Of a stretch of DNA of 36,310 bases, positions 14,631 to 36,310 are shown piece after piece. How positions within the stretch are numbered: the first letter of the stretch is position 1; every line of letters begins with the position of its first letter. The notes beneath the pieces were generated by a model, which saw only the letters and a list, made by a program, of their open reading frames with translations, was not told where the DNA came from and searched no databases. The stretch is taken from the IMG/VR virus record IMGVR_UViG_3300042305_002206, positions 1 through 36,310 of that record. The stretch is one strand, 5' to 3'. The translations under genes were made by a program, and so were the position numbers. The DNA comes from a virus.

Positions 14631-14638
14631 GGGTCACC

Positions 14639-17775: not shown

Positions 17776-18143
17776 GGGTTCACCCCGCGAGCGCGGCCGG
17801 CGACCTCAAAGCGCTCGACACGGTCGGCGATCTGGTCGAGCCGCTCCTCGAGGCGGATGACCCGCGCATCGAGCAACGTCGACGCTTTCTGGTAGTCGGC
17901 CAAGTGAAGGCGCATGCCCTCGAGGTCGCTGTTCGTCCGTGTCAGCCGGTCGGTCATCACTGCGATCTGCTGACCGAGCTCCTGCTGCGCCTTGATGACG
18001 AGGTCGAGCTTGGCGGTGAGCGCCCCTGTGTCTCGGTCGGAGCGGTCGAGGAGCCGCGACAAGAGCCACATCAGCCCCGCGCCGACACCGGCTCCACCGC
18101 CGCCGACTTTCACCATTTCTGTCGGGTCCAGACCGTCAGCCAT
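17772..18143 (-). CDS. Membrane-anchored coiled-coil protein of the lysis module
   Basis: 123 residues. A Gly-rich N-terminal transmembrane segment (VGGGGAGVGAGLMWLLSRLL, about 12-31) is followed by a long coiled coil (ALTAKLDLVIKAQQELGQQIAVMTDRLTRTNSDL... to DQIADRVERFE). This architecture resembles haemolysin XhlA-type or i-spanin proteins placed next to endolysins. The ATG at 18143 is favoured because the repeated 26-bp element lies 23 bases upstream of it; an in-frame GTG/ATG at 18173 would overlap that element. Its stop overlaps the endolysin start. Confidence 0.65.
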   Translation of the reverse strand: MADGLDPTEMVKVGGGGAGVGAGLMWLLSRLLDRSDRDTGALTAKLDLVIKAQQELGQQIAVMTDRLTRTNSDLEGMRLHLADYQKASTLLDARVIRLEERLDQIADRVERFEVAGRARGVNP

Positions 18144-18166
18144 GCCTCGCACCCTGCCCCGAGGCA

Positions 18167-18192
18167 CGCACACGATTCGGCGCGCCGTCAGC
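18167..18192 (-). promoter_or_regulatory. Repeated 26-bp stop-codon element, copy C (ahead of lysis module)
   Basis: On the minus strand this reads GCTGACGGC, five variable bases, GA, ATCGTGTG, CG. The TGA in its first block is the stop codon of the large tail-tip gene. The same element occurs at 25983-26008 and 32565-32590 in the same orientation, always carrying the upstream stop and always just ahead of a new gene. Function unknown: internal late promoter, RNA processing site or recombination joint. Confidence 0.7.
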
Positions 18193-20845
18193 GAGTGTCG
18201 AAGTGCACGCCGTCGAGAGTGATGCCCGACTGCGCGTCGGCAAGCACTCCACCCCCCGAGCCCGCGTAGTGCACCGAGCCATCGGTGCGGATCTCGAGGT
18301 ACGAGAGCGCGTTGGTGCCCGTGCGTACCGGGTATTGAAGGATGGCGCTCGGCCGGTAGCCAGTAGGCAGCGTGAAGATGAGCGTCGTCAGGGTCGCAGT
18401 GGTGACCTTCACCAAGCCCCTGAGCTGAACGAAGCCGCGCTGGTCACGTAGGTAGCCGGCCGTCTGCCAGGAGCCTCCGACGTTGCCCCAGTTGGTCGCG
18501 AAGGTGGGTGCGTTCCACGGCTCGATGGCCGGGACGACAGCGGGCAGTAGCTCCACGCTGGCGACGCTGAACGAGTAGGCCGAGCTCGCGGTCGACTTGT
18601 AGAGCTTCACCCGGCAGTAGTTCGCTCCAGCAGGCACGTAGACCACATCAGAGAACTCGCCCCAGGTGCTCTCGGCGGTGAAGTTGTAGAGCGCCTCGGA
18701 GATGTGACTGCCGAGGGAGGTGGTGAGCGTCTCCTCGGTGAAGAACTCGAGCTCCACCTTGAGGTTTCGCCCTGCCGTCATCGTGCCCTGCGGCCTCAGC
18801 ACGGCGACGACTTTCGCCAACGCCATGCCCCGAGGCACTGGCCAGCCTCCCGAGCGCAGCACGCCCACCACGCCTGTCTGGCGGAACTCGATGAATCGGC
18901 CGTTGCTGGTCGAGGTCCCAGAGTAGATGTCCTTCGATGCTCCCCACTCGCCAGCGGTGACCGACCAATGGTCCGGCGGCGCAGTGGTGAGTGAGTCGAA
19001 CGAGGTCTGGAACTTACCGTTCGGTGGTCCGAGGGGAACGACCAGCGCGTCGAGGTGGCCCGCCTGCGCACGCCCAGCGACGAAACTGAAGACAGCCGAG
19101 GGCTCGCCCCGCACCAGCCGGCTCGCATTGTACCCGTAGGGCACCCAGCGCCCGTAGTACGTCTTCCCAGGCACGAGGTGCGCGAGCTCGAACGACGTCG
19201 CTGCGCCGTGCGCAGCCAGCGTTGCCGAGCTCGGCGTGAAGACACTCGATTCGCTGATGTGCAGCTCGGCCGCCGGCGGGAGCGAGTCTTTAGAGGTGGT
19301 GATGGCGCGGGTGAAGCGCGTCCCACCGACGACCGTCGAGACCGTCGTCGACACGGAGAGGTCGTTCGACAGCGACAGCTGGTGCACGTCGCTCGGGTTG
19401 ACGCGCCCCTCCTTGTCGAGCCACGCAGAGAAGCGCGCCGCCGGCTTGCCGCGGAGCGTGACCGAGGTGCGCGCACCATCCTCGCCGAAGGTGTGCTTCA
19501 GGCTCTGCACCGCGAGCGTCTGGGCCGTCGTGAATCGCAGCCCGTCGGCGGGGATGAGGAGCAGGTCGCCCAGCTCGAGGTACGGGTCGATGCTGAATGA
19601 AACCGCCGCTCCGATGACCGGCAAGGCCAGGTCGGAGAGGATGGCGTTTGCTAGGCGAGTGGCCTCAGAGGCGGTGTCGATGGCGGAGGAGTCAGCCTCT
19701 GCCACCTCCATGAAGCGCCGCCCGTAGAGCGCAATGGAGGCCGCGTCGCTCACCTCGATGGCAATGCGCGTCGGTGTCCCCTGAGGCGAGCGCGAGCTCG
19801 AGTCGCCGTAGATGACTCGCACGACGTTCCGAATCGACCAGACGTCGAGACCCAGCGAGGAGCACTGAACTTCGTCATCCTCCGCGAGGGTCTTGTTGAC
19901 GACGATGGAGCTGCGGCCCGGGTCGCCCAGGCGCCACACGTAGGCCGATGAGGCGGTCGACCACTCGAAGCGGATGTACCAGCCGAGCTGGTCGGCGAGG
20001 GTCTGGATGGCCTGCAACACCGTCTGCCGCTGTTGAATGTACGGGCGCACCACCCACGACGGACTAACCGGTACGGATAGCGTGATGCTGCTGAGTCCGT
20101 TGTCGTTCAGGATGAACTGGATGAGCGTCTCGAGTGCGATGCCCGTCTCGCTCGTCGCCCCCGACTCGGTGAGCGTCACGCCCCCGCTGACGACCGTGGC
20201 CCCGCTGCCCGTAGGCCAGGTGGGCTCCGCAGCCGACTGCGGGCTCGAGGCCGCCGTGACGCGGTAGAAGCGCCCGTTGCGGTTGTCTTTCGAGGGCAGC
20301 ACGAGGTCGCCGACCGCAAGCGCGGCCATGTCGTAGGCCCAGACGAGGCACCCCTTCGTCGCATAGACGCCGGTCGCGGCACCGTAGACCCGCTCGCGCT
20401 CGATCCACTTGTCGCGCGGGAGGACCGACTTGTCGGTGCAGACCAGCTCGAGGTCGTCAGTGGGCCACTGCAGCTCGTCGATGAAGCCGTCGAAGACGGT
20501 CTCGCGCAGCCCTGCAGGCGTGGCCGTGATGTCGGGCAGCACGAGTTCGACCTCGATGACGATGCGCCAGCTGATGGCGATGAGCGCGCCGAGCGGGTTG
20601 CCGGTGATGACCAACGGGGCGAGCGAGTAGGCGCCCTGCTGCCGTCGCAGCTTCACGCGAGCAGTGCGTGGGCCATCGAGGTCCTGCGCGATTTCGACGT
20701 CGAGCGTGGGCTCGACCATCCCCATCAGGCTCGTCTCGTCGAGCACCGTGGGCGTCCCGCCCGAGTTGTAGACCGTGACGATGGCCCGTGCGCTGTGCGC
20801 TGGGTTGGACAGAACGGCGCTTGCTTGGGCGCTCTTCGTCCGCAT
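18188..20845 (-). CDS. Large tail-tip / baseplate hub protein with receptor-binding C-terminus
   Basis: 885 residues. Residues about 1-130 look like the baseplate-hub N-terminal beta fold (TARVKLRRQQGAYSL, FDGFIDELQWPTDDLELVCTDKS). The stretch around 230-500 (LIQFILNDNGLSS, VLQAIQTLADQLGWYIRFEW, LANAILSDLALPVIGAAVSF, LELGDLLLIPADG) is typical of tail-associated GpD/Tal-like hubs. Residues about 510-600 look fibronectin-like (LPPAAELHISESS..., VPGKTYYGRWVPYG). The C-terminus (YLRDQRGFVQLRGLVKV, LIFTLPTGYRPS) is the short fibre-tip module seen in receptor-binding proteins. It follows the distal tail gene by 1 base, and its stop codon lies in the repeated element. Confidence 0.8.
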   Translation of the reverse strand: MRTKSAQASAVLSNPAHSARAIVTVYNSGGTPTVLDETSLMGMVEPTLDVEIAQDLDGPRTARVKLRRQQGAYSLAPLVITGNPLGALIAISWRIVIEVELVLPDITATPAGLRETVFDGFIDELQWPTDDLELVCTDKSVLPRDKWIERERVYGAATGVYATKGCLVWAYDMAALAVGDLVLPSKDNRNGRFYRVTAASSPQSAAEPTWPTGSGATVVSGGVTLTESGATSETGIALETLIQFILNDNGLSSITLSVPVSPSWVVRPYIQQRQTVLQAIQTLADQLGWYIRFEWSTASSAYVWRLGDPGRSSIVVNKTLAEDDEVQCSSLGLDVWSIRNVVRVIYGDSSSRSPQGTPTRIAIEVSDAASIALYGRRFMEVAEADSSAIDTASEATRLANAILSDLALPVIGAAVSFSIDPYLELGDLLLIPADGLRFTTAQTLAVQSLKHTFGEDGARTSVTLRGKPAARFSAWLDKEGRVNPSDVHQLSLSNDLSVSTTVSTVVGGTRFTRAITTSKDSLPPAAELHISESSVFTPSSATLAAHGAATSFELAHLVPGKTYYGRWVPYGYNASRLVRGEPSAVFSFVAGRAQAGHLDALVVPLGPPNGKFQTSFDSLTTAPPDHWSVTAGEWGASKDIYSGTSTSNGRFIEFRQTGVVGVLRSGGWPVPRGMALAKVVAVLRPQGTMTAGRNLKVELEFFTEETLTTSLGSHISEALYNFTAESTWGEFSDVVYVPAGANYCRVKLYKSTASSAYSFSVASVELLPAVVPAIEPWNAPTFATNWGNVGGSWQTAGYLRDQRGFVQLRGLVKVTTATLTTLIFTLPTGYRPSAILQYPVRTGTNALSYLEIRTDGSVHYAGSGGGVLADAQSGITLDGVHFDTR

Positions 20846-20846
20846 G

Positions 20847-21767
20847 TCAGACCTCGGTGAGCTTGCCGCTCAAAGTGCAGTCGGTCGTCTGCCAGGCGCC
20901 CGCTCGAGCAAGCGGCGTCACCTGCATCTCAGAAACCTCGCCCGTGCAGACCAGCGCCGACTGAGTCGAGCCGAAGGGGGTGGCCTTGAGCTGGTCTGAT
21001 GAGAGCAGGTCCGACGTGACGTAGACGCGGGGGAGCAGTGGCATCGGGTTGCGCACCAGCGCGAGGCCCTCGAGCAGCTGGTCGAGCTGCGCCACTGGCA
21101 GGAACCAGGGGATGAGCAGCAGGTTGCTCCAGCGCCATCCACCGCCCGAGCCTGGCGACGTGACGGTGAGCGTCCCCGAGCTCACGGCCAGCGTCTCCGT
21201 GCCAGTGTACGCCTGTGCGGCACCGCTCGACCCGATGGCGCCCACCTTCTCTCGCTTGTTCGGGACCGTCGTCTCACCGCCGCGCCAGCTCCAGGCGAAC
21301 AGCCGCCAGCTCGCAGCCCCCTCGTCGTAGCGCCACCCCGCGAGAGACGCCCCTCGGACGCCCGAGGACTGCCCGCCCACGGCGCTCTGGTCCGACAGCT
21401 TCCCGGGCACCACGAGGGTCTGCCCGATAGTGGTACGCCACACGCCGTTGCCGCTGCCCGCGACGGGGTTTCCGCCGCCGGCGCCCGTCCATGCTCCCGT
21501 GCCGGTGAGCGCGAGACCCTTGGCGCCGTAGGCCGAGCTCGCCGTCGACCAGAACTCGCCGTCGCCGAGGATGAGCGAGCGGTAGAGCATGGCCTCGTCG
21601 AGGGGGCACGGGCTCAAGGAGAAGTTGAACCCCCACTTCGAGGCGCGGCGCTCGAGCAGCCCGTGACCGCGCGTGTTCCTGGCGGCGGTGCCGATGGTCT
21701 CGAGGCTGAGGGAGAGGCTGTCGACCGTGACCGGCAGCTCGACGCCGGCGATGCTGAGCAGTGGCAT
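20847..21767 (-). CDS. Distal tail (Dit-like) protein
   Basis: 306 residues between tape measure and tail-tip hub, the canonical position of the distal tail protein. The sequence is beta-rich with no membrane segment: MPLLSIAGVELPVTVDSLSLSLETIG, then WGFNFSLSPCPLDEAMLYRSLILGDGEFW, then a long Gly/Ser-rich central loop and WSNLLLIPWFLPVAQLDQLLEGL. Primary sequence does not give a named family, so the role is mainly from order and length. It overlaps the tape-measure stop by one base (TAATG). Confidence 0.65.
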   Translation of the reverse strand: MPLLSIAGVELPVTVDSLSLSLETIGTAARNTRGHGLLERRASKWGFNFSLSPCPLDEAMLYRSLILGDGEFWSTASSAYGAKGLALTGTGAWTGAGGGNPVAGSGNGVWRTTIGQTLVVPGKLSDQSAVGGQSSGVRGASLAGWRYDEGAASWRLFAWSWRGGETTVPNKREKVGAIGSSGAAQAYTGTETLAVSSGTLTVTSPGSGGGWRWSNLLLIPWFLPVAQLDQLLEGLALVRNPMPLLPRVYVTSDLLSSDQLKATPFGSTQSALVCTGEVSEMQVTPLARAGAWQTTDCTLSGKLTEV

Positions 21768-24106
21768 TACCAGTCCCCTCTGTCGCGACGGGGGCGAGGG
21801 CTGCCGGTGCGTTGGCCGCGGTCTCGGTTGGCCTCTCGCTCGGCATCCGCGGCGAGTTCCTCCGCCGTCTTCGGGTCGCTCGTCACGTGGACACCGCCGT
21901 TGATGATGACGGTGCTCCCGCCACCTGCAGCTGCGGCAGCCATTGGCGACGCACCGATGCCGAGGTCAGCGTTGAATCGGCTGAGCGCGAGCTTGTAGCC
22001 CGAGGGGACGTTGCTCAGGCTCTCGGCGACCGCGCTGGCAGCCTCGGCAGCGGTATTCTGTGCGGCCGCGTTGCGCAACGCCGCGCCTGCGGCCTCGCCT
22101 TGGGCGATGGCGTTGTCTCCAGTGCGGGCCCACATCTTGTCCACGATGCCCTTGAGACGCGCTGACTCGGCCTTCGCCTTCTCGTCGCCGAACACACCCG
22201 CGAGCTCGTTGAGGCCGATGATGATGCCGAGGATGACAGTGGCGATGACCTTCAGCAGCCCGGCGACCAGGTCGAGGATGGGCTTGAGCGCGTCCATCAC
22301 CACGCCGAGCACGTTGCCGATGACCTCGAGGATGGGCGCGATGGCGAGCAGGATGTCGCCGATCGCATAGAGGATGGGCGAGAGGTACTTCACCAGCTTG
22401 GCGATCGCTTCAAAGAGTGGCTTCAGCGCCGCGAACACAGGCGCGATGATCTGCACGACGATGCCCAGCACGTCCGTGAGCGCATCGAAGATGGGCTTCA
22501 CCAGCGGCTCCACCATCTCGGCGAGCTGCTTGACGAACTCCATCGCGACGTCCAAGAACTTCAACGCGCTCTCGGTCTTCTTCGCGATCTCCATGAAGGC
22601 GGCGATGATTGCCCCCCAAACACCGCCCTGCTGAGCCCCCTCGACGATGGAGCCCACCAGGTCACCCACCGCCCCGAGGAGCTGCTTGCCGGCACTCGCT
22701 ACGAGCGGACCCATGCGCGAGCCCCATGCAGCCAGCTCCTCACCAAACGTCGCCGCGCGCCCGAGGCCTTCCTTCAGGGCAGTCAGCGCTCCGTCCCAGG
22801 AGGCGGCTCCGACTGCATCTGCCATGGCCTTCGCGCGCTTGTTGCCATCGGTCGACGCCGACATCCCCCCGCCAAACCGACGCGATGTAATCTTCGCATC
22901 GCTCAGGCTCACGCTCGCCAGGCCACCGCGCATCGTGGTCGTCGGCTCTTGGGCGATGCTCTTGAGCCAGGCTCGGATCTCCTGACCGATCTGAACATCC
23001 GCCATGCGCTTCTTGAAGGCATCGGCCTCGGCGGCCACTTCCTGCAGGTGATAGGCAGCGGCTTGCGCAGCCAGGCGCATCGACTCGTCCGCCATGAACT
23101 CATGGCCGCTTGGGTCCCGGGCCACGCTCTTGGCCGTACTACGACCTAGCCCGATGGTCTTGCCTCCTCCTCCGAACATCTTGTCCAGGCCGAGCTTCGC
23201 CATGAGCTCGGCCTTGATGACGGAGAGTTCCTCGACGAGCCCCTCGGCCATCTGCTGTCCGACGGTCTTCCCGAACTTGAAGGCGTCGCTGAAGAAGCTG
23301 CCGCTCTTCAGGTCCTTCCACAGCCCGGCGAAGCCCTCGCGCAGCCCCGCGGTGTCGACGACCTTCTTTCCGGTGAGTGCCTGCACCGCGTCGATGGCCC
23401 CGAGGATGGCTTCGACGAACCGCTCGGCACCGTTGATGATGAAGCTCCAGACCTTCCCCATGAAGTCGCCAAACTGGCTGAAGGCATCGCGCAGCCAGTT
23501 CACCACCTCCTGTGTCGCCTCCTGAATGCCGCCCCAGTTCTTGCGCCAGGCGCGGTGCAGCAGGACGACGACGGCGATGACCGCAGCCACGGCCAGAGCA
23601 ATCTCGAGGAGCGGTGCAAGCCCTACCGAGGCGAGCATCGAGAACGCGCTCTTCAGTACCCCAAACGCCGAGCTCGCCAGTCCCGAAAGCATCGAGAACG
23701 CCTTGGCCGCAAAGGCGACCTGCACAGCCATGACGGCGAACGTGCTGATCTGCCTCTTGAGCTCCGGATCGAGCGACGCGACTACGGTCGCTGCCTCCTT
23801 GAAGAGGGACGTCAGCTCATGCACCGCCGGCAAGAGCATGTCGGCGACCTGCACCGCGAGCAGCTTGGCGCTGTTCTCCAAGCCCGTCATGGCGGACTTG
23901 GTTGGCCCGTCGACGGTGCTCGCTAGCTTGAGCGCGCCGATGCCGATGGCTGACAGAGCGCCGGCGAACTGAGCGACGTCGGCTGAGACCTTCTTCGCCT
24001 CCCTGCTGAAGCGCTCGAGGGCGCCCATCGCGCCCGACATGCCCTTCGAGAATGCTGACGTGCGCGCGGTGAGCGACACGTAAAGCGAGCCCAACTTCAG
24101 CGCCAT
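21767..24106 (-). CDS. Tail tape measure protein
   Basis: 779 residues. The N-terminus MALKLGSLYVSLTARTSAFSKGM and the long helical, Ala/Lys-rich body are typical. Hydrophobic segments lie at about 165-185 (LLEIALAVAAVIAVVVLLHRAW) and in a long stretch at about 540-640 (ISPILYAIGDILLAIAPILEVI-like, VAGLLKVIATVILGIIIGL). These may insert into the host membrane during DNA entry. At about 1.5 angstrom per residue the length predicts a siphovirus tail of about 115 nm. It starts one base after the stop of the frameshifted chaperone, the classical order. Confidence 0.92.
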   Translation of the reverse strand: MALKLGSLYVSLTARTSAFSKGMSGAMGALERFSREAKKVSADVAQFAGALSAIGIGALKLASTVDGPTKSAMTGLENSAKLLAVQVADMLLPAVHELTSLFKEAATVVASLDPELKRQISTFAVMAVQVAFAAKAFSMLSGLASSAFGVLKSAFSMLASVGLAPLLEIALAVAAVIAVVVLLHRAWRKNWGGIQEATQEVVNWLRDAFSQFGDFMGKVWSFIINGAERFVEAILGAIDAVQALTGKKVVDTAGLREGFAGLWKDLKSGSFFSDAFKFGKTVGQQMAEGLVEELSVIKAELMAKLGLDKMFGGGGKTIGLGRSTAKSVARDPSGHEFMADESMRLAAQAAAYHLQEVAAEADAFKKRMADVQIGQEIRAWLKSIAQEPTTTMRGGLASVSLSDAKITSRRFGGGMSASTDGNKRAKAMADAVGAASWDGALTALKEGLGRAATFGEELAAWGSRMGPLVASAGKQLLGAVGDLVGSIVEGAQQGGVWGAIIAAFMEIAKKTESALKFLDVAMEFVKQLAEMVEPLVKPIFDALTDVLGIVVQIIAPVFAALKPLFEAIAKLVKYLSPILYAIGDILLAIAPILEVIGNVLGVVMDALKPILDLVAGLLKVIATVILGIIIGLNELAGVFGDEKAKAESARLKGIVDKMWARTGDNAIAQGEAAGAALRNAAAQNTAAEAASAVAESLSNVPSGYKLALSRFNADLGIGASPMAAAAAGGGSTVIINGGVHVTSDPKTAEELAADAEREANRDRGQRTGSPRPRRDRGDW

Positions 24107-24107
24107 G

Positions 24108-24847
24108 TCAGTGCCCCTTTCTCGAGCGCGGCTGCTTGCTCTTCGCCTCTCGCTGCGCCTTCTCGATGGACTTGCGCTCGGCCTCGGCCTTCAGCTTCCA
24201 GTAGGCCCGCCACTCGAGCAGCTCGAGCAGCGGGAGTTCCTCCTCAAGCTCGTAGACGGGACGACCGACGGCCTCAGCGCACTGAAAGAGCGAGAGCCGC
24301 AGGCCGTCCTGACTCAGTTTTTTTCGACCTCCTCCTCCTTGGCCGCGTTCATCAGGGGGTAGGCCACCTCGAAGATGTCGTCGACGAAGCCGCCGGCGAG
24401 CTGCGCGGCGAGCGCCGGCTTGTCCGCGTCGGTGAAGACCTTGATGTTCGTCCCTGGCTCATAGGTGAGCGCGACCACCGTCTCGACCTGGAGCGCAGCC
24501 ATGTCGATGGCCGCGCCCTCGCCGGTGACTCCGGCGGCGCGGAAGATGGCCGCGCGCTGCTTGAGCCCTGGCTCACGGACCTCGACGCAGGCCGCCGAGC
24601 CGTCATCCTTGAGGGCAGGCGGATGGCGGTAGCGCTTCACCTCGCGCATCATGGGAGCGCCCTGCTCATCGAAGAGCGGCTGCCGCTGCTCGTCGAGCAT
24701 CGGCTCGGACTTGGGCTTCCCCTCTTCGTCGACCTCGACCTCGAGCACACGGGGACGAGAGGCGTCGCGGATGGGGACGAGCTTCTTCCGCATCTGGCGC
24801 GGGGGCGCGCCGAGGGTGAGACGGCGCAGCAGTTCACGGTCGGACAT
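24108..24847 (-). CDS. Frameshifted tail assembly chaperone fusion (gpGT-like)
   Basis: Product of a programmed -1 shift at A AAA AAC (24323-24317). The 177 residues of the upstream chaperone are joined to 69 further residues encoded 24317-24111 (stop 24110-24108), giving 246 residues. The extension begins LSQDGLRLSLFQCAEAVGRP and continues with a charged helix (LLEWRAYWKLKAEAERKSIEKAQREA) and a Lys/Arg tail. It has no start codon of its own. As with lambda G/GT, the fusion should bind the tape measure and tail-tube proteins during assembly. The heptamer, frames and lengths were read directly from the sequence. Confidence 0.85.
24314..24847 (-). CDS. Tail assembly chaperone (gpG-like, unshifted product)
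   Basis: 177 residues, 0-frame product ending EEVEKN just after the slippery heptamer. Visible parts are MSDRELLRRLTLGAPPRQM, an acidic linker with duplicated-looking EPMLDEQRQPLFDEQGAPMM, and a helical domain (KQRAAIFRAAGVTGEGAAIDMAALQVETVVAL, FTDADKPALAAQLAGGFVDDIFEVAYPLMN) typical of siphovirus chaperones. It is expected in excess over the fusion. Its ATG overlaps the tail-tube stop (TGATG). Confidence 0.88.
   Translation of the reverse strand: MSDRELLRRLTLGAPPRQMRKKLVPIRDASRPRVLEVEVDEEGKPKSEPMLDEQRQPLFDEQGAPMMREVKRYRHPPALKDDGSAACVEVREPGLKQRAAIFRAAGVTGEGAAIDMAALQVETVVALTYEPGTNIKVFTDADKPALAAQLAGGFVDDIFEVAYPLMNAAKEEEVEKN
24317..24323 (-). promoter_or_regulatory. Programmed -1 ribosomal frameshift site A AAA AAC
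   Basis: The minus strand reads GAA AAA AAC TGA in the chaperone frame, so A-AAA-AAC is in the correct register and the 0-frame stop follows at once. After slipping back one base, reading continues CTG AGT CAG into a 69-codon frame that ends one base before the tape measure. This is the strongest class of bacterial slippery sequence. Confidence 0.9.
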
Positions 24848-25524
24848 CAGGCCTCCCAGGCGTATCCGGCGAGGCCGCTCGCGCGACCCGCGCCGGTGAA
24901 GTTAACGGTGCTGTTGATGAGGTCGGCTACGGCCCCGCCGCCCTCTGCGCTCTCGAGCAGCACCCAGGCGCGGAAGCGCTTTCCGCCTACGGCTACCTCG
25001 ATGAGCAGCGGGGTGCCGGTGTCGAGCAGAGTCTGCAGCACGAGGGCGCCGGCGCCGGGGTCGTGGTCGTACGAGAGCAGCTCGTTCAGCGTGAGCGAGC
25101 CCGAGACGTCACGGAGACCCAGCTTTTTCGATCGGACTCCCGTGCTGTTGTTGATGGTCGTGTCGTCGAGTACCTCGCGCGCCGCGGTGTAAGACCAGTC
25201 GGTGATTCCGACCAAGTCGATCACCGGGAGGTAGCTCCCGCTCACGCGCACGAGGGCATTCGCGCCCTGGTCCGCGGTGAATGTGATGATGCCGAAGAGG
25301 TAGTCCACCCTGTAGGTAGACGCGGCAGCCACGACGTATCCGCCGGCCCCAGGTCCGTCGGCGTCGACTTCGACGACGACGGGCACCGCAGGGTCGAGCA
25401 GCCGGCGCGCGTCGGTGGTGAGCTGGTAGACCGTGTTCGCCGTGAGCCTGGTCGTCGGCTCGGAGGTGAAGGCGGTCGACGTGCCCGGACCGCGGATGAC
25501 GCTGGTGTGGTTGGCGGTCGACAT
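24847..25524 (-). CDS. Tail tube protein, larger paralog
   Basis: 225 residues. After an N-terminal extra domain (about 1-100: TANTVYQLTTDARRLLDPAVPVVVEVDADG, YRVDYLFGIITFTADQG) comes a domain that aligns with the neighbouring 135-residue protein: AAREVLDDTTINNSTG, KKLGLRDVSGSLTL, ESAEGGGAVADLINSTVNFTG. The two genes are adjacent duplicates. The product is likely a tail-tube subunit or a tube-associated protein; the extra domain may be surface-exposed. It stops at the chaperone ATG. Confidence 0.75.
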   Translation of the reverse strand: MSTANHTSVIRGPGTSTAFTSEPTTRLTANTVYQLTTDARRLLDPAVPVVVEVDADGPGAGGYVVAAASTYRVDYLFGIITFTADQGANALVRVSGSYLPVIDLVGITDWSYTAAREVLDDTTINNSTGVRSKKLGLRDVSGSLTLNELLSYDHDPGAGALVLQTLLDTGTPLLIEVAVGGKRFRAWVLLESAEGGGAVADLINSTVNFTGAGRASGLAGYAWEA

Positions 25525-25533
25525 GCCAGCGCC

Positions 25534-25941
25534 TTACGGCCGCGAGATGGCGGCGCCGTTCTGGGTGATGTTGAACGTCGTGCTCACCAGGTCGCCCACG
25601 GCCCCGCCCACTTCGATGCTCTCGACGAGCACGGGATACGTGACGCCGTTGGTCCCATCGGGCAGGTCCGTCACGTAGACGGTCGTGCCGTTGATGTGAG
25701 CGTTCCGCAGGATGGTCTGGATGCTGTCGGTCGGCTCCCAGTCGCCGCTGATGGACCCGGAGCCGTCGCGGAGGCCGACCGTCTTGGTGCGCGTGTCGCC
25801 GTCCTTGAAGTCGGTGGTGTCCAGGACATCGCGGCTGTTGCTGAAGCTGAAGTCTTTGGCGCCGTCGAGCTCGTCGCCAGCGACGGGCGCGGCGCTGGTC
25901 GACTTCACGTAGAGCTTCCTGAGGTGTGCGGCGGTCGACAT
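25534..25941 (-). CDS. Major tail tube protein
   Basis: 135 residues from the ATG at 25941, with a perfect GAGGAGG Shine-Dalgarno 6 bases upstream, the strongest in the window, as expected for a high-copy structural protein. Features of siphovirus tube subunits: MSTAAHLRKLYVKSTSAAPV, SNSRDVLDTTDFKDGDTRTK, VGLRDGSGSISGDWEPTD, NGTTVYVTDL, VGDLVSTTFNITQNG. It shares its domain with the following gene. The 26-bp repeated element lies 42 bp upstream of its start. Confidence 0.85.
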   Translation of the reverse strand: MSTAAHLRKLYVKSTSAAPVAGDELDGAKDFSFSNSRDVLDTTDFKDGDTRTKTVGLRDGSGSISGDWEPTDSIQTILRNAHINGTTVYVTDLPDGTNGVTYPVLVESIEVGGAVGDLVSTTFNITQNGAAISRP

Positions 25942-25982
25942 GGTGTCCTCCTCGAGAGAGGACGCCAGCGTGCCCGCGCGCA

Positions 25983-26008
25983 CTCACACGATGCGAGCGG
26001 CCGTCAGC
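25983..26008 (-). promoter_or_regulatory. Repeated 26-bp stop-codon element, copy B (ahead of tail tube)
   Basis: On the minus strand: GCTGACGGC, CGCTC, GC, ATCGTGTG, AG. The TGA in its first block is the stop of the tail-terminator fusion gene. It lies in the 62-bp gap before the tail-tube gene; the rest of that gap (25942-25982) carries only the tube gene's Shine-Dalgarno. Confidence 0.75.
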
Positions 26009-26954
26009 CCAGCGAGGAGCGGTAGGCGCACTCGAGGTTGATGACCCACAGCCCGTGCTGCTTCCCGTCGTCGCCGAGGTAAACCGGCGCAGAGTCGCGC
26101 GCATCCCAGCTCACGTACCCGACTGGGACCTGCTGGTGGAGCCAGGCGTAGATGGCGCCGGCGATGGCCGCCCCCTCGGTGTCGTCCCCCGCGGGCCCGC
26201 GCACCATCACCTGCACCGTCGGGGTGAAGAGCGCGGTGCGGTGCCCGCCGATGTAGGCCGAGGGCGACGGGCCGCCGGTGCCCAGGACGAAGACGCCCGG
26301 CGCTGGCGTGCGGTCAATGGCCCGCATCTGCCCGATGAAGAGGTTCGTGCCCTCGGTCATCGTGAGCGAGCTCGCCGCCTTGCCGTTGAGGAAGGCCGCG
26401 ACGTCGGCCGCGGCGTCCTTCAGCGGGCCGGGCGATGGGGCAATCCACGGCTGGGACTCGACGCTGCCGGTGAGATACTCCGGGAAGGCTCCCGCTGGGG
26501 AGTCGAGCCTGAATGCGACGTCGACCTTGAGGTCTGCCGTCGATGGCACGACGGCGAATAGGTAGCTCGTGCCCCCGATGGCCAGCACCGAGGGCGGTGT
26601 CCGGGCGACGCCGGAGAAGTCGCGCCAGATGCCGACGGACGGGTTTGCTCCCACCCAGAGATCCCCCGCGACGTTCTCGAGGTGCCACGCGAGGAAAGGG
26701 TTGTTGGGCGTGTGGATGGCACCCGCGTAGCGCCGCGGCACCGAGCCGACACCGCAGTCGATGAGGAAGGCGACGCGCGTCGACTCGTCAGAGTCGGACG
26801 GGGTGAAGCCGTACTGCCCGCCGCCGAGCTCGGTGATGGCGGGAGGCGTGGGCGAGCCGCCTGTCGTCGTTCGGTACTGGACGAACGACGGCGTCGCGCC
26901 GGTGAGGGGCGCGCCGTTGACGTCCTGCAGACCGAACGAGATGCGGTCGGCCAT
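26004..26954 (-). CDS. Tail terminator fused to N-terminal beta domains
   Basis: 316 residues. The C-terminal about 140 residues (AADVAAFLNGKAASSLTMTEGTNLFIGQMRAIDRTPAPGVFVLGTGGPSPS as separate motifs, then FTPTVQVMVRGPAGDDTEGAAIAGAIYAWLHQQ, and APVYLGDDGKQHGLWVINLECAY) match the phage tail-terminator/minor capsid family. The first about 170 residues hold two similar beta units (DESTRVAFLIDCGVGSVPRRYAGAIHT and DLKVDVAFRLDSPAGAFPEYLTGSV), probably Ig-like decorations. This fusion is unusual. Its stop codon is inside the repeated element. Confidence 0.75.
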   Translation of the reverse strand: MADRISFGLQDVNGAPLTGATPSFVQYRTTTGGSPTPPAITELGGGQYGFTPSDSDESTRVAFLIDCGVGSVPRRYAGAIHTPNNPFLAWHLENVAGDLWVGANPSVGIWRDFSGVARTPPSVLAIGGTSYLFAVVPSTADLKVDVAFRLDSPAGAFPEYLTGSVESQPWIAPSPGPLKDAAADVAAFLNGKAASSLTMTEGTNLFIGQMRAIDRTPAPGVFVLGTGGPSPSAYIGGHRTALFTPTVQVMVRGPAGDDTEGAAIAGAIYAWLHQQVPVGYVSWDARDSAPVYLGDDGKQHGLWVINLECAYRSSLG

Positions 26955-26957
26955 GGC

Positions 26958-27203
26958 TCAGGGCACCGGGTCGTTGGGGTCGACGACGACGTCAGGCAGA
27001 GCGTCGACGAAAGCCGAGAACTGCGTGGGCTTGCTCGCCGCGAAGTCCGCCGCGGCCGACGCTTCCTGCGAATCGAACTTGGTCAGCCACTCCTGTGCAG
27101 CCGAGACAAGGTTTGCCACCTGCCGTCGTCGAGCGGAACGCCCTGAGACCTCGGCCTTGATGGTGTTGAGTGCGTCAATGAACTGCTCTCGTCCGAGGCT
27201 CAC
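26958..27203 (-). CDS. Small helical late protein
   Basis: 81 residues from a GTG with GGGAG upstream. Helical (REQFIDALNTIKAEVSGRS, QVANLVSAAQEWLTKFDSQ, AAADFAASKPTQFSAFVDALPD) with an acidic, Pro-ending tail. No family recognised. It lies between the fibre-like gene and the tail terminator in the connector module, so a head-tail joining or assembly role is possible. Confidence 0.6.
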   Translation of the reverse strand: MSLGREQFIDALNTIKAEVSGRSARRRQVANLVSAAQEWLTKFDSQEASAAADFAASKPTQFSAFVDALPDVVVDPNDPVP

Positions 27204-27218
27204 GATGAGCTCCCTTCG

Positions 27219-28148
27219 TTAACCGGTGGCGATGGTGACCCACGAGTAAGTGTCGGCCGCGCTCTTCAGGCAGATCTGCACGGTGTCGGCAGCGCCAGCC
27301 GCACTCTTCGAGTACCAGAGGCACCCTCGGTTCGCGGCGTTCGCAGTCGGCCGCGCAACGCCCCCTTCGTTGAACTGCTGAACCCCCGAGAGGACGACGA
27401 CCTGACTCGTGCGCTCGTAGAAACTCGAAGCACCCAACGAAAACAGGTTGTTCGTCGGCATGCTGATGGGTCCCTGATGGGACAGCACGCCCGTCGAGGT
27501 CCACTGCGTGCGGAACGTGCCGCCTGTCACCACGTTGATGGTGTTCGCGGCTGGGAACCAGAAGCCAGTGTCGTCGTCGCCGGCCGTGCCGAGGGCGACG
27601 TCAGAGCCGCTGCCTGCAGCGGGACGCAACCCGCCGCCCTTCCGCACGTGGAACGCCTCGACATAGGTGCCGCCCACGCCGGTGCCCACGCTGAGCGGCT
27701 TAGCTCCGGCGTTGACGCTGCCGTCGTCAGTCGAGAAGCCGACGACGACGCCGCGATCGCCGCTCGACGTGCCGTTCGTGTTGAACAGCGACGCGACCTG
27801 AATGCCCGCGCTGGCGATCAGCGTCGCGGCGAACGTCTTCGGGCCCGCAAAGGTCTGCGCCGCCGTCGTCATGATGCCCTGAACGGTGTCCGAAGCCGCG
27901 ACGAGCGTGAGCTTCAGTACTTGCCCGACGAGCGTGAGCCACGAGCTCGAGGCGCCATCGAGGCTGACGTTTCCGGTGTTCGTGCCGCTCACCGCGTCGA
28001 GCTTCGTCTTGTCGGCCGCGGACATCGCGCCGGCCGCGACCGTCGAGGCCGTCCCCATGGCGAGCATTCCGCTCGTGAGCGTGAGGCCGTTTGCCTGGGT
28101 GACCGCGCTGACAGCACCCTTCGACGGCGAGGGGATGATGCTGCTCAC
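27219..28148 (-). CDS. Fibre-like structural protein in the connector module
   Basis: 309 residues with phage fibre features: VTQANGLTLTSGMLAMGTASTVAAGAMSAADKTKLDAVSG (the AxxKTKLD segment recurs in fibre N-termini), repeated short beta motifs, and a C-terminal head (FSLGASSFYERTSQVV, RPTANAANRGCLWYSKSAAGAADTVQICLK) like fibre knobs ending in YSWVTIATG. It lies between the gp10-like protein and the tail terminator, not with the distal tail genes, so it may be a neck whisker, capsid or tail-shaft fibre. Confidence 0.7.
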   Translation of the reverse strand: MSSIIPSPSKGAVSAVTQANGLTLTSGMLAMGTASTVAAGAMSAADKTKLDAVSGTNTGNVSLDGASSSWLTLVGQVLKLTLVAASDTVQGIMTTAAQTFAGPKTFAATLIASAGIQVASLFNTNGTSSGDRGVVVGFSTDDGSVNAGAKPLSVGTGVGGTYVEAFHVRKGGGLRPAAGSGSDVALGTAGDDDTGFWFPAANTINVVTGGTFRTQWTSTGVLSHQGPISMPTNNLFSLGASSFYERTSQVVVLSGVQQFNEGGVARPTANAANRGCLWYSKSAAGAADTVQICLKSAADTYSWVTIATG

Positions 28149-28549
28149 TCGCCACCTCCCGTGAGTTGCTTGAGGTCCTGAGCGACTCGATCGACGAAGC
28201 CCTGCTCAAATTTGCTCGTCGCCCGCTCGAACCACTTGAAGCCGTTGGTGCCCTCGACGTGCTCGCCCCAGTGCACGCCCTCGTGCACGGCGGCGGCCTT
28301 CTCGTCGGTGTACGCAGCGGCCACGCGAACGACGCCTTTTGCCTCCTGCACGACGGACGTTACGACCGAGCTGCCGGCCAGAGTGCCGGTGCGCCGAGGG
28401 GCGGCCGCGTTTGCCGCGTTCATGAGCGCTTGGCCCTCCGCCGGAAGTCGCTGCGCCAAGAGCGCGAGGAACTCGCGCGGCTTCTTCTTGAGCGCCTTGA
28501 CCAGCTCGTTGCCGCCCTCGATAGACAAGATGACGTCTACGGAGGCCAT
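28145..28549 (-). CDS. HK97 gp10-like head-tail joining protein
   Basis: 134 residues from the ATG at 28549 (TGATG overlap with the previous gene). GGNELVKALKKKPREFLALLAQRLPAEGQALMNAANAAAPRRTGTLAGS, read as motifs KALKKKP, AAPRRTGTL and later YTDEKAAAVHEGVHW, is the HK97-gp10 signature (APxRTGxL, then HEGVHW with the His near the C-terminal third). These proteins help connect tail and head. The longer in-frame upstream extension overlaps the previous gene and is rejected. Confidence 0.85.
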   Translation of the reverse strand: MASVDVILSIEGGNELVKALKKKPREFLALLAQRLPAEGQALMNAANAAAPRRTGTLAGSSVVTSVVQEAKGVVRVAAAYTDEKAAAVHEGVHWGEHVEGTNGFKWFERATSKFEQGFVDRVAQDLKQLTGGGE

Positions 28550-28869
28550 CAGAGGTCCACCCTGTAGAGCGTGCGCGCGCCCGCGAAGTCGGCCGCGGCG
28601 GCGACGGAGATGGGCGCGTAGCTGTTCTCGGGGCTCGAGGTCGACGCGCCCGGCAGCCACACGCGGTCGGTGAGGGCGATGGTCTCGAGGCACCAGAGCC
28701 GGTGGTTGCTGGCGACCTCCTCACCCCTGGCGTTCCGCACCATGCGCCGCTGCTGCTCGACGCGCACAGCGCGCGCCGCGGGCGCCCCGTACACCGGGTT
28801 GCCCCTCGCGTCCGTGCCCGTGACCGAAGCGACGTAGGCCGTCGCGCTGAGGATGCGTGCAAGGCTCAC
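28549..28869 (-). CDS. Head-closure / head-tail connector protein
   Basis: 106 residues. A small beta barrel is suggested by ATAYVASVTGTDARGNPVYG, VRVEQQRRMVRNARGEEVASNHRLWCLETIALTDRVWLPG and a C-terminal strand (TLYRVDL). Size and position between the gp6-like adaptor and the gp10-like protein match phage head-closure (stopper) proteins. 4-bp overlap with the upstream gene. Confidence 0.7.
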   Translation of the reverse strand: MSLARILSATAYVASVTGTDARGNPVYGAPAARAVRVEQQRRMVRNARGEEVASNHRLWCLETIALTDRVWLPGASTSSPENSYAPISVAAAADFAGARTLYRVDL

Positions 28870-29525
28870 ATCACCCTCCGGTAGCGGTCGAGCTGCAGCA
28901 GGACGGCGTCAGGGAGGATGCCGCCCACGCCCACCAGGTTGCTCGGGAGCCGGTAGCTCACCGAGTAGTCGCCCAGGGACTCCGAAGCGACAGTCGGGTC
29001 CGTCCCCTGCTTGCGGTACAGGTGCGCGACGGTCTGGATGCAGGCCTCCTCGAGTTCGTAGGGGAGCGAGCGCGATGGCCCCGCCCAGACGCCGCTGGCC
29101 GCTTGGGCCGGCGTCACCCAACCGCCGGCGTACGTGGCGACGATGCTCTTCTCCTCCGTGCCAACCGCGGGCATGTCGTAGAGCAGGCCCGCGCGGATGC
29201 CGCCGGTGTACGGCCATCCGGCCGACCGGCAGAGCGCCGCCTCGTCCTCGAGGGTGAAGTCGCCCGAGCCAAGCACGGTGCCGTCGGGGAGCGAGACCGA
29301 GGCCACGCTCAGCACAGGCGTGACGCCCAGCCAGAGCCGAACCTGGCCCACGTAGCCCGCCAGGCGCTCGACGATGGCCGCCCCGTAGTGGAGGCGCGGT
29401 CGGCGGAGGTAGCCGGCAATAGCCTCCGAACTCGCGCCGATGAGGCGCGGTAGCTTCGGGTCCGCGGCGCTGACGCCGAGGGCCTCTGCCGCCGTCGCTG
29501 CGAGGGTGAGGTCGGAGTCAGCCAT
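28866..29525 (-). CDS. Head-tail connector/adaptor protein (gp6-like)
   Basis: 219 residues. Helical N-terminus (AATAAEALGVSAADPKLPRLIGASSEAIAGYL), a beta insertion (VTPVLSVASVSLPDGTVLGSGDFTLED..., SIVATYAGGWVTP) and a C-terminal helical bundle (PYELEEACIQTVAHLYRKQGTDPTVASESLGDYSVSY). This is the DnaA-like arrangement of HK97 gp6-type adaptor proteins, with PxxLxxAxxxxVxxxYxxr and a late YSVxY strand. It follows the portal/capsid genes in canonical order. Confidence 0.8.
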   Translation of the reverse strand: MADSDLTLAATAAEALGVSAADPKLPRLIGASSEAIAGYLRRPRLHYGAAIVERLAGYVGQVRLWLGVTPVLSVASVSLPDGTVLGSGDFTLEDEAALCRSAGWPYTGGIRAGLLYDMPAVGTEEKSIVATYAGGWVTPAQAASGVWAGPSRSLPYELEEACIQTVAHLYRKQGTDPTVASESLGDYSVSYRLPSNLVGVGGILPDAVLLQLDRYRRVM

Positions 29526-29575
29526 GGGTTACCTCGATTCGCGGCGGCTGGGCCGGCCCGCGAGGGCCGGGTGCT

Positions 29576-29854
29576 TCACTTCTTCGGCTCGGCTCGCTTC
29601 TCCGGCTTCGGGACCAGGTTGCCCGTCGCCTTGTTGTCGACGAGCTCAGGCTCCGCATCGACGATGAGGTCCTTCAGCTCGCCGTCGACCTCGCGCTGAA
29701 CGTGCAGTTGCTTGGCGGTGTCGATGGCGCCGATGAGCACCCCGCCACCGAACTTGATGATGTGCGCCGCGGTGTCGGCGGTGAAGCCGCCGACCTCACC
29801 CGCAGCGAGGTTGTTGAAGTGTTTCGTCAGACGGATGAGCTGCAGCTGCGCCAT
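29576..29854 (-). CDS. Small late protein of unknown function
   Basis: 92 residues with GAGG upstream of the ATG. IRLTKHFNNLAAGEVGGFTADTAAHIIKFGGGVLIG suggests a compact beta domain (GExxGF...A..L...G.A), similar to small phage proteins downstream of capsid genes that are sometimes annotated as head-fibre or decoration partners. The C-terminus is Lys-rich (PKPEKRAEPKK). Not assigned. Confidence 0.6.
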   Translation of the reverse strand: MAQLQLIRLTKHFNNLAAGEVGGFTADTAAHIIKFGGGVLIGAIDTAKQLHVQREVDGELKDLIVDAEPELVDNKATGNLVPKPEKRAEPKK

Positions 29855-29966
29855 GTGGAGCCTCAGGGAGAGAGAAGACCAGGGCGGCTCACGCCCCGGG
29901 TATTGCGCCCTCAGTGCCGGCGTCGACGTCCCCGGTGAGCCCGGATCGTCCGTCGACCGGGAGGCC

Positions 29967-30416
29967 TTACGCGTCGTCCGCGATGGGCAGGACGTCAGCG
30001 CCGCCGAGCACCAGGGCGGCCGCCGAGTTCAGCGTCGGGGTCGTGCCGCCGGTGAAGGCGGTGACGCAGACCACGCGGATGAACTGCTTCGCAGTCTTCA
30101 GGTCGATGCTGCGCTTCTTGATGGTCGACGCCGCGGCGATCTGCGCGAGCGCGCCCGTGCCGCCGGGCGCGGGCACCGAGGGCGTGTAGTCGGTGTACGT
30201 GCCGCCCAGCGCGTCTGAGTGCTGCAGCTTGAAGTCGGCGGTCTGCGCCGAGGGCGCTCCGGTGACGGCGCCCGTCTGGCCGACGAGGACGCACGAGTTG
30301 AAGCCCTGGCGGTCGATGCCGGTGCCGTTGGCAGTGCCGGCGGAGCGCGCCGAAGGGTCGAGGCCGATGCGCGTGGCGACTTCCGCGCCAACGCCGGTAA
30401 TGGTCTGAGCGGTCAT
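29967..30416 (-). CDS. Putative capsid decoration protein
   Basis: 149 residues directly after the major capsid gene, with a strong AGGAG Shine-Dalgarno. IDRQGFNSCVLVGQTGAVTGAPSAQTADFKLQHSDALGG (read as IDRQGFNS, VTGAPS, FKLQHSD) and a C-terminal TAKQFIRVVCVTAFTGGTTP, then AALVLGGADV match a common beta-rich phage structural protein (DRQGFxS, KLQxSD, RxVRVV). Such proteins are usually taken as capsid decoration or head stabilising; not proven here. The 112-bp gap after it (29855-29966) is GC-rich with small inverted CCGG motifs and no gene. Confidence 0.65.
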   Translation of the reverse strand: MTAQTITGVGAEVATRIGLDPSARSAGTANGTGIDRQGFNSCVLVGQTGAVTGAPSAQTADFKLQHSDALGGTYTDYTPSVPAPGGTGALAQIAAASTIKKRSIDLKTAKQFIRVVCVTAFTGGTTPTLNSAAALVLGGADVLPIADDA

Positions 30417-30462
30417 GGTTCAGTTCTCCTGGCTGCGAGGGTGAGGTCGGCTCAGGCTTCCC

Positions 30463-31746
30463 TTACGAGAGGGTGACCTGCTCCATGAGGGCGAACGAGT
30501 TGTCGTGGCGGGCCGCGACGTCGTGCGACTCGATGACGCGGATGGGCGTGGTGTCGTTGCTGAAGCCGGCGACGACGGCCGAGCCGTTCCAGTACGCGCC
30601 GTTCGGCTGTACCTCGACCTCGAGCGGGCGCGTGCTGTCTCGGCCGAGGATGACGTCGGAGTGCACGCCGAAGAAGACCTGGCTCTGCGAGCCCGAGATG
30701 TTCGTCGGGATCTGCGTGGTCTTGGCGAATCGGAACCCGAAGAGGTTGCCGGCCATCAGCATCGGCATGAAGACGAAGTTGCCGTTGCTGTCGAGGAGCT
30801 TGGCGAGCCCCCAGAAGGTGCGCGGCGCCATGACGTAGGCCGCCGAGTCCATCGGGATGTTCGACTCCTCGACGAGCTTCGCCAGGTTGCAGTAGTCCGC
30901 GACGACGTTCGCGAGCGTCGTGCCGGTCTGGTTGAACTTGTTGCCGGCCTTGATCCACGACTGCACGCCCTTGGGCTGCGTCTCGGCGCCGGTGCCGCGG
31001 TAGAACGAGAGGTCGCGGCGGAGCCCCATCGCCGTCAGGAGGTCGTCGCGCACCATCGCGTCAGCACCGACGGACGGCATGGCGAGGAGCTCGTTGGTGA
31101 TGGGCACGAGGCCCGCCGCCTTCTTGCCGGTCAGCTTGATGGCGCCGACGCCGGGCTGCGACGGGGTGATGTTCTGCTCCTCGCCGACGTAGCCGACGGT
31201 CGCGCCGCTGTTCAGGCGGCCGAGGGTGAGCGAACCCTGGAAGTCGAGCTCACGCGCGCCCAGGCTCGTGGCCACGGTCGCCGCGTAGAGCAGCTCGATG
31301 AACTCGGCCGACATCTGCTCCGGGATGAGCACGCCGGCGCCGGAGAGGGTGCCCGCCTCGAGGGCGCGCTTCTCGAAGCCGCTGAGTTCCTCGGCCACCT
31401 CGCGGTAGCCCTGGAAGCCACGCTTGGCCCACTCGCCCGCGATGTCCTGGGGCTTGGACCCGGAGCGCTTGGCGTGCGCGATGGCGCGGACGGAGCGGGC
31501 GAAGGCAAGGCCGGCGCCCTTGCGCGGGTCGATGCCCTGGCGGAACTGCGCGAGGCGGTCCTCGCGGGTGGGGGCCTGGCCCGAGGCGAGCTTGGCCACC
31601 TTCGCCATGAACTCGGGGTCGCCGCGCTTCATGGCGGCGTCGAAGGCGCCGCGCGCCTCCTGCTCGGCGCCGAGCATCTTGTCCGCGATGGCGGCGTCGA
31701 CGTTGTCCTTGATGATCTTGCCCAGGTCCTTGACGGTCATGCTCAC
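30463..31746 (-). CDS. Major capsid protein (HK97 fold) with N-terminal scaffold domain
   Basis: 427 residues from a GTG at 31746 overlapping the protease stop; AGGAG lies 7-8 bases upstream. The first about 110 residues are helical (MLGAEQEARGAFDAAMKRG...), like the HK97 delta domain removed by the protease. The mature part shows the HK97 pattern: AGVLIPEQMSAEFIELLYAATV, FQGSLTLGRLNSGATVGYVGE, VPITNELLAMPSVGADAMVRDDLLTAMGLRRDLSFYRGTGAETQPKGV, and near the end the FGFRFAKTTQIP and RVIESHDVAARHDNSFALME segments. Clear assignment; cleavage site not determined. Confidence 0.93.
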   Translation of the reverse strand: MSMTVKDLGKIIKDNVDAAIADKMLGAEQEARGAFDAAMKRGDPEFMAKVAKLASGQAPTREDRLAQFRQGIDPRKGAGLAFARSVRAIAHAKRSGSKPQDIAGEWAKRGFQGYREVAEELSGFEKRALEAGTLSGAGVLIPEQMSAEFIELLYAATVATSLGARELDFQGSLTLGRLNSGATVGYVGEEQNITPSQPGVGAIKLTGKKAAGLVPITNELLAMPSVGADAMVRDDLLTAMGLRRDLSFYRGTGAETQPKGVQSWIKAGNKFNQTGTTLANVVADYCNLAKLVEESNIPMDSAAYVMAPRTFWGLAKLLDSNGNFVFMPMLMAGNLFGFRFAKTTQIPTNISGSQSQVFFGVHSDVILGRDSTRPLEVEVQPNGAYWNGSAVVAGFSNDTTPIRVIESHDVAARHDNSFALMEQVTLS

Positions 31747-32540
31747 GGTGCAGCTCCTTCCGAGACTTCGAGTTCCCCACGGTTGCGGAGCTCGGCCGCC
31801 TTGGCCTTCTCCGAGACGACTTCGTTGACGGTGTCGCGCACGAGCTTCGCGAGCCCGTCGGCATCCAGCCCCTCAGGGAGCTCGACCAGCTCTTCCGTCG
31901 ACTGAGCCTGAGGCGCCGGCGGCGGCTGCGCCGCGGCCGCGCGCTTCGCGAGAGCGGCAGCGCGGAGCGCCTTCGCCTCCGGGCTCGGGCGCTGGTCAGC
32001 GGTCTGCGCCGCGCGAAATGCGACAGCCTGCGTCATGAGGCGGAGGTCGGCGAGCTCGGCGGTTCGCATCGGCAGCGCGTTCGCGTTACCGGGTACGGTG
32101 ACGATGCTCAGTTCGAGGAGCTCGGCGCGCGTGAAGTCGAGCGGCGGGTACGCCCAGTTCTGCCACTCGTCCTCGGACTCGCGCTCGAGGTTGTATTCCG
32201 ACTCGAGCACGCGGGCGCCGACCGAGATGCCGAGCACCCCCGCGTCCACCATGCCCATGATGCGGCTCGCGTCGGGGTGCAGGTCGTCGCTGAAGAACTC
32301 GACGTCGGCGACCAGCTTGCCGCCGGTTTTGGCCGTCGTCGCCTTGCCCACGGGGAGGCCGCGGCTGTCGTGGCACCAGAGCACCACGGGGTTCGCGCCG
32401 TACGCGTCGAGCTCCCAGCCGTCGAGCTTGAAGACCGTGTTGTAGCGGTCGACGCTCTCATCGCTCGCCACGAAGCGGCGAGTGCGGTCGCCCGTCACCT
32501 CTGCCCCAGCTGGCGCCTCGCGGCGGATCGGCGTCTTCAT
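31743..32540 (-). CDS. HK97-family prohead protease with C-terminal extension
   Basis: 265 residues. The protease domain (about 20-165) shows RRFVASDESVDRYNTVF, GANPVVLWCHDSRGLPVGK with His57, LVADVEFF, and AELLELSIVTVPGNANA with Ser145, matching the HK97 gp4/herpes assemblin-like serine protease. The remaining about 100 residues are Ala-rich and charged (ALRAAALAKRAAAAQ, PEGLDADGLAKLVRDTVNEVV), possibly a scaffolding extension. It follows the portal gene, with the repeated 26-bp element in the gap, and overlaps the capsid gene (GTGA). Confidence 0.9.
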   Translation of the reverse strand: MKTPIRREAPAGAEVTGDRTRRFVASDESVDRYNTVFKLDGWELDAYGANPVVLWCHDSRGLPVGKATTAKTGGKLVADVEFFSDDLHPDASRIMGMVDAGVLGISVGARVLESEYNLERESEDEWQNWAYPPLDFTRAELLELSIVTVPGNANALPMRTAELADLRLMTQAVAFRAAQTADQRPSPEAKALRAAALAKRAAAAQPPPAPQAQSTEELVELPEGLDADGLAKLVRDTVNEVVSEKAKAAELRNRGELEVSEGAAP

Positions 32541-32564
32541 GGAGCGAGAGACTCCGCGAGGGTG

Positions 32565-32590
32565 CTCACACGATGCGGGCCGCCGTCAGC
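32565..32590 (-). promoter_or_regulatory. Repeated 26-bp stop-codon element, copy A (ahead of protease-capsid)
   Basis: On the minus strand: GCTGACGGC, GGCCC, GC, ATCGTGTG, AG. The TGA in the first block is the portal stop. Copies A and B differ at only three or four positions. It sits 25-50 bp upstream of the protease ATG, in a gap otherwise holding only leader sequence. Confidence 0.75.
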
Positions 32591-34094: not shown

Positions 34095-34118
34095 GCTTCT
34101 GGTCGTACGCCCACCCCG

Positions 34119-36228: not shown

Positions 36229-36310
36229 GCGGGGCACGTTGGCCGAGGTCCGTCACTCGACGGGGCCGGCCGGAATTCCGGGGTTTTTCCGAACTAGCCC
36301 GCGCGAATTG
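36229..36310. other. Right-end intergenic region, candidate packaging site
   Basis: No gene. It contains the perfect 12-bp palindrome CCGGAATTCCGG (36270-36281), followed by GGTTTTTCC, and a repeat pair CGTCACTCGACG (36251-36262). Joined to bases 1-60 it forms a gap of about 140 bp between the double-HTH gene and the small terminase, the usual place of cos or pac. The two ends of the window show no obvious terminal repeat, so ends may be cohesive or the molecule circularly permuted; not decidable from the text. Confidence 0.4.

Follow-up and report, generated by a model that had tools for sequence, protein, structure and literature searches.

The 36,310-nt virus contig IMGVR_UViG_3300042305_002206 (the window, meaning the whole stretch that was analyzed) carries a repeated sequence element on its minus strand at the heads of the late gene modules, and the position and geometry of this element are conserved across lineages of related phages. 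An internal late promoter had been among the candidates offered in a preliminary description of this DNA, and the promoter is strongly supported by sequence comparison: the element occurs at the same junctions in relatives, an A at -11 and a T at -7 peak at a fixed 12 nt from an upstream box, and a step of 6-8 nt leads on to the ATG. We consider it highly probable that its five copies, which head the terS, portal, protease/capsid, tail-tube and post-hub modules, are phage-specific late promoters that would be used by a sigma70-type RNA polymerase together with a phage activator.

The repeated element and its layout

The preliminary description had reported a 26-bp element at 18167-18192, 25983-26008 and 32565-32590 on the minus strand, and all three copies were recovered with 0 mismatches to the 26-bp consensus. 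The ends of the open reading frames (ORFs) bore out its statement that the TGA within each copy is the stop codon of the ORF upstream (the hub, 18188-20845; an ORF at 26004-26954; and the portal, 32586-34094). Its further statement that no other full copy was noticed stood in part: no fourth copy with three or fewer mismatches was found in the window (0.02 expected in shuffled sequence), but two weaker copies, before portal (box at 34125) and before terS (box at 36259), had been missed. The element also extends beyond 26 bp, as a second conserved feature, a hexamer with A at position 2 and T at position 6, lies 12 nt past CGTGTG (the box), and the complete element reads CGGC-N9-CG(T/A)GTG-N12-NANNN(T/C). 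The box is asymmetric, occurs once per promoter and abuts the -30 region. The stop codon, considered as a functional part and rejected, is incidental: the bases preceding CGGC in relatives are TGA-A, TGA-G or GGT (no stop), and since the register is shifted or the stop absent, it does not belong to the element.

Over 36 sites, weighted by genome, the box formed one peak of information content, and A-11 (2.25 bits) and T-7 (1.80 bits) formed two more. As the sites were aligned by the box, and the sites of one genome are mutually related, the box peak is partly built in, which does not apply to the -10 peak. At the fixed distance of 12 nt from the box, the genome-weighted frequency was 0.94 for A and 0.82 for T; C stood at -7 in some portal copies, including that of the distant relative L115. 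A-11 and T-7 are the -10 bases most strongly read by sigma region 2, and the combination that marks a sigma70-type -10, A-11 and T-7 at a constant distance from an upstream element, was found at these sites, which have no canonical -35. A sigma54 (-24/-12) promoter was considered and rejected: GG-N10-GC is absent, and only A or C, at no site G, stands directly behind the invariant box.

An ATG follows the -10 hexamer after 5-10 nt, mostly 6-8 nt, at 26 sites of the window and its relatives, and it lies 7-8 nt past the element at four of the five sites of the window. With a 6-8-nt step, a transcription start at the usual distance of about 7 nt from the -10 would be expected to fall on the start codon. 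A Shine-Dalgarno core was present at one of these 26 ATG-proximal sites, compared with six of ten further late genes in the window (the tail tube and nine genes within operons). The start codons are credible since the protein starts agree among relatives (MG(L/F)... for the portal, M..RR for the protease). The tail-tube ATG lies at least 25 nt downstream wherever the site was seen, and in the window GAGGAGG stands before it. The messages at the late-module heads are predicted to be mostly leaderless.

Related phages and the five sites

Relatives were gathered by IMG/VR searches with the element and with the portal and TerL proteins. A check of the same junctions in related phages had been proposed in the preliminary description, and the element proved to be present there. 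The close relatives are G004 (41 kb), G005 (24.6 kb), G002 and G006 (5 kb each); in G004 and G005 the element stands ahead of the protease and of the tail tube and again behind the hub, and the two 5-kb contigs have it at the single junction that each covers. The part constant among them is CGGC, 9 nt and CGTGTG. Six distant relatives (G007, G011, G012, L113, L114 and L115, with TerL 52-62% identical) carry a repeated element of their own at the same junctions, at all five of those seen in the window in the case of G011. The box is CGGGTG in G007, (C/T)GTGTG in L113, CTGTTG in L114 and CGTGTA in L115, and it is CGTGTG in G011 and G012, in a different sequence context. Despite the change of box, the 12-nt spacing, A-11, T-7 and the 6-8-nt step to the ATG are kept, and the gene order is identical in the relatives. 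A box peculiar to each lineage within a fixed layout and spacing suggests a regulator that co-evolves with its box. No close relative was found among named phages, the best TerL match being at most 49% identical over three quarters of the length.

All five sites lie on the minus strand. The first, before terS (36236-36272), is the weakest copy, with CGGC at 36272-36269, a box one base off (CGAGTG, 36259-36254) and the -10 hexamer CAACGT at 36241-36236, followed by N7 and the ATG at 36228; G004 (CGAGTG-N12-GAGCGT-N8-ATG) and G011 have a copy at the same position. The second, before portal (34102-34138), comprises CGGC at 34138-34135, CGTGTG at 34125-34120, overlapping the terL stop codon, and TACGAC at 34107-34102, with N7 before the ATG at 34094, and the junction is shared by G004, G005, G011, G012 and G007. 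The third (32549-32590), which includes the copy at 32565-32590, precedes the protease (ATG at 32540) with CGGC at 32585-32582, the box at 32572-32567, GAGTCT at 32554-32549 and N8; it recurs at this junction in G004, G005, G006, G007, G011, G012, L113, L114 and L115. The fourth (25967-26008, including 25983-26008) precedes the tail tube (ATG at 25941) with the box at 25990-25985, CACGCT at 25972-25967 and a 25-nt leader containing the GAGGAGG ribosome site, and is shared by G002, G004, G005, G007, G011 and G012. The fifth (18151-18192, including 18167-18192) lies after the hub and before a small gene at 17772-18143 (ATG at 18143), with the box at 18174-18169, CAGGGT at 18156-18151 and N7; G004, G005, G007 and G011 have it at the same post-hub position, and the genes that follow the hub are putative lysis genes.

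Other matches were set aside. Raw-pattern matches outside the family (L007, L009, L012-L014 and most of L047-L074) have no structural protein in common with the window and seem to be chance matches or to come from other phages; L010/G003 has a 22-mer shortly before an ATG but likewise no protein in common with the window, and the matches to GGGTGAAAGCCTCGCG beyond G007 belong to other phages. In L196, a contig without the structural proteins of the window, GTGTGTTTGCCTCGCGGAAGGTT at 11584 (minus strand) stands 7 nt before an ATG and is close to the G004 and G011 promoters; either the match is due to chance, or an unrelated phage has a promoter of the same type. Distant prophages with a similar gene order (TerL 42-46%) have different repeated elements, whose ends lie about 5-10 nt upstream of the terS and protease starts. 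Each of L118, L119, L122, L153, L155 and L162 has a multi-copy element of its own, CACGCATTTA, CACACATTTA or GGAAAGCGTCCCCAT. The elements of these prophages do not match the CGTGTG-N12 geometry and make up a different box system within a common gene order. This pattern suggests that phage-specific, start-proximal late promoters are a habit of the whole group.

Candidate activator, alternative readings and genome context

The candidate late activator is a 175-residue protein encoded at 61-588 (minus strand), the last gene before the contig end, with two helix-turn-helix (HTH) domains at about 74-112 and 129-165. Pfam returned HTH_23 (6.6e-11) and Sigma70_r4_2 (5.7e-9), the second HTH being sigma70 region 4-like; PHROG returned a DNA-binding family (5.5e-14) and, weakly, a late activator (836, 6.3e-5), and among NCBIfam models no known late-regulator family was matched, the only matches being sub-cutoff transposase and sigma HTH models. 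The AlphaFold model has a mean predicted local distance difference test score (pLDDT) of 69, with the HTH parts mostly above 80, and the structural matches that it gave, none of them significant, were best for bipartite DNA-binding domains, that of Tc3 transposase among them. An IMG/VR search with the protein returned only G004, whose homologue (63%) lies directly before terS in the order regulator-terS-terL. The gap between the 61-588 gene and terS is where the contig ends lie in the window, and both ends (1-70 and 36230-36310) resemble the regulator-terS gap of G004, so that the window probably represents a circularly permuted genome, close to complete, that was cut here. The second HTH also stands just before terS in three other relatives: in G007 and G012 it forms the C-terminal end of a DNA-methyltransferase-like ORF, and in G011 it is a free 102-residue protein with a cysteine-rich tail (ORFs L043 9335-10414, L112 7980-9161 and L111 7051-7359). 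The small HTH gene before terS in these three genomes and G004 was counted in favor of a late promoter with its own activator. The extra CGGC box is known only in the lineage with the additional HTH (the window and G004), a single correlation. On such circumstantial grounds, the double-HTH protein is likely to read the box.

From these features we infer promoter activity, a transcription start, leaderless translation and the identity of the activator as follows. Host RNA polymerase with a sigma70-type factor would read the weak -10, NANNN(T/C), through A-11 and T-7, and the role of a -35 would fall to the box at -30 to -25 (CGTGTG), which lies exactly 12 bp upstream of the -10 and would be occupied by a phage DNA-binding protein; CGGC at -43 to -40 may offer a further contact in the lineage of the window. 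The bound protein, probably the double-HTH protein encoded immediately before terS, would recruit or stabilise the polymerase. At most heads, transcription would start on the A of the start codon or beside it, giving leaderless mRNAs, with the exception of the tail tube and its 25-nt leader with a strong ribosome site, and the five promoters would switch on the virion-building genes together.

The full pattern has five exact matches in the window, all on the minus strand and all at late-module heads, against a mean of 0.1 and a maximum of 2 in 60 simulated genomes, and the pattern without CGGC but with an ATG at 6-8 nt has four matches against 0.03 expected; these counts measure specificity and are not a blind test, as some of the sites that the pattern finds had served to fit it. 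A matrix trained without the window comes nearer to a blind test, and it placed the post-hub, tail-tube, protease and portal sites at ranks 1-4. Besides the fitting of the pattern, several points weigh against the promoter and its proposed activator. Two of the four matrix scores are within the range of the simulated maxima, which averaged 12.5 and reached 19.4; the weak terS copy falls outside the top 20. The -10 hexamers, except in L115, fit TANNNT poorly, and a consensus scan for promoters and terminators found no ordinary sigma70 promoter at the copies. The link to the regulator is circumstantial, consisting of gene position and domain type, and the protein varies greatly in length and fusion partner among the relatives.

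We regard it as unlikely that the reader of the same five promoters is instead an alternative sigma factor of the host, or a sigma-like phage protein that itself contacts the boxes. The absence of a -35 hexamer and the sigma region 4-like second HTH of the 61-588 protein would suit such a reader, but A-11 and T-7 are a hallmark of the sigma70-type -10, the scanned ORFs yielded no full sigma factor, and a shared host factor would leave the lineage-specific box unexplained, unless the hosts differ too. An RNA-level signal in the late transcript, such as the processing or antitermination site that the preliminary description had offered, a nut/put-like element or a terminator, is very improbable. 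The intergenic position on the sense strand would fit it, as would the fact that the three strong copies begin with the stop codon, but no consensus RNA fold was obtained from 11 sites (-1.5 kcal/mol, covariation term -0.06), the scan found no terminator at the copies, and the constant step from -10 to ATG and A-11/T-7 have no role there. The other earlier candidate, a recombination joint for late-module exchange, is extremely unlikely: the element does lie at module boundaries, alike within a genome and different between lineages, but homology-driven exchange would not keep the 12-nt spacer, A-11/T-7 and the ATG distance while the box changes, and the gene order is the same in the relatives. 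A side role in module exchange is possible. A translation-initiation element can hardly be credited, for although the downstream end lies close to the ATG at four of the five sites, 25 of the 26 sites lack a Shine-Dalgarno core, and the tail tube has the same element with its ATG at least 25 nt away behind a separate ribosome site.

The late promoter as proposed would provide a concrete and testable late-transcription scheme for a temperate phage family known almost only from metagenomes, in which the box is able to change from lineage to lineage within a constant geometry. Major virion genes are predicted to have leaderless mRNAs under this scheme, and transcription units of relatives could be annotated with the pattern.

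The temperate-phage genes of the window include an integrase, a LexA-type DNA-binding protein, a Dam-type methylase and a replication initiator, and the minus-strand late block runs in the order terS, terL, portal, protease, capsid, connectors, tail tube, tape measure and hub. The LexA-type domain (2.8e-16) is encoded at 4891-5211 (minus strand), and the protein may tie prophage induction to DNA damage. The terS ORF (35368-36228, minus strand) has, besides its terS region, an N-terminal stretch matching endonuclease VII/HNH-type families. Long imperfect direct repeats (a 96-nt family in five copies, plus related families) form a block at 13700-14620, within the overlapping ORFs 13545-14630 (minus strand) and 13705-14664 (plus strand). 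Near-identical 41-nt repeats, GGCGGAGGGCCGGTCATGAGC, lie at two gene starts at 11538-11578 and 11969-12009 (plus strand); in contrast to the late genes, these genes have an overlapping stop and start and a good ribosome site.

Comparison with known phage systems

The start-associated sequences (SAS) of cluster K mycobacteriophages have AGGAG at the ribosome-site position and lie by non-structural genes (PMC3203893). The element of the window resembles them as a short repeat that stands a few bases ahead of start codons within a single group of phages, but it is without a Shine-Dalgarno sequence and heads structural modules. In RinA/Ltr phages, a small regulator encoded just before terS switches on the late genes, and Ltr of phi13 is associated with a single promoter that has four direct repeats (PMC13123087). 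The likeness to RinA/ArpU/Ltr lies in the gene for a small DNA-binding protein directly upstream of terS (the order in G004, with an HTH also in G007, G011 and G012), whereas the 61-588 protein had no match to these families and the five promoters have one box each. At P2 late promoters, Ogr binds further upstream, as a dyad. Mu late promoters depend on the activator C, with the activator site upstream of the -35 site (PMC4461284). The proposed scheme shares with Mu and P2 several coordinated late promoters at module heads under one phage activator, and differs from them in its asymmetric box, which abuts the -30 region.

T4 middle promoters have a MotA box centred at -30, 12±1 bp from the -10, and work by sigma appropriation (PMC2988021). 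The window promoters are alike in that a phage box near -30 replaces the -35 and stands 12 nt from a host-type -10 at all aligned sites. They are unlike in that the box is CGTGTG or a lineage variant instead of TGCTTtA, the -10 is weak instead of near-consensus TAtaaT, and the promoters serve late genes, with predicted leaderless heads here; no MotA/AsiA family match was found among the ORFs scanned with Pfam, a sequence-based scan of part of the ORFs. We propose tentatively, at somewhat less than even confidence, that the double-HTH protein, as a bipartite DNA-binding protein of transposase-like or paired-like type, acts in a MotA-like manner at the -30 box, that its extra N-terminal HTH reads CGGC at -43, and that it drives mostly leaderless structural mRNAs, with sister lineages carrying a matching single HTH on a methyltransferase end or as a small separate protein, box and reader changing together, which would make a control system not described before. 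A MotA-like plan, with a phage box at -30 and 12 bp to the -10, may occur far from T4, and the window promoters would work like the T4 middle class without being filed as a member of it.

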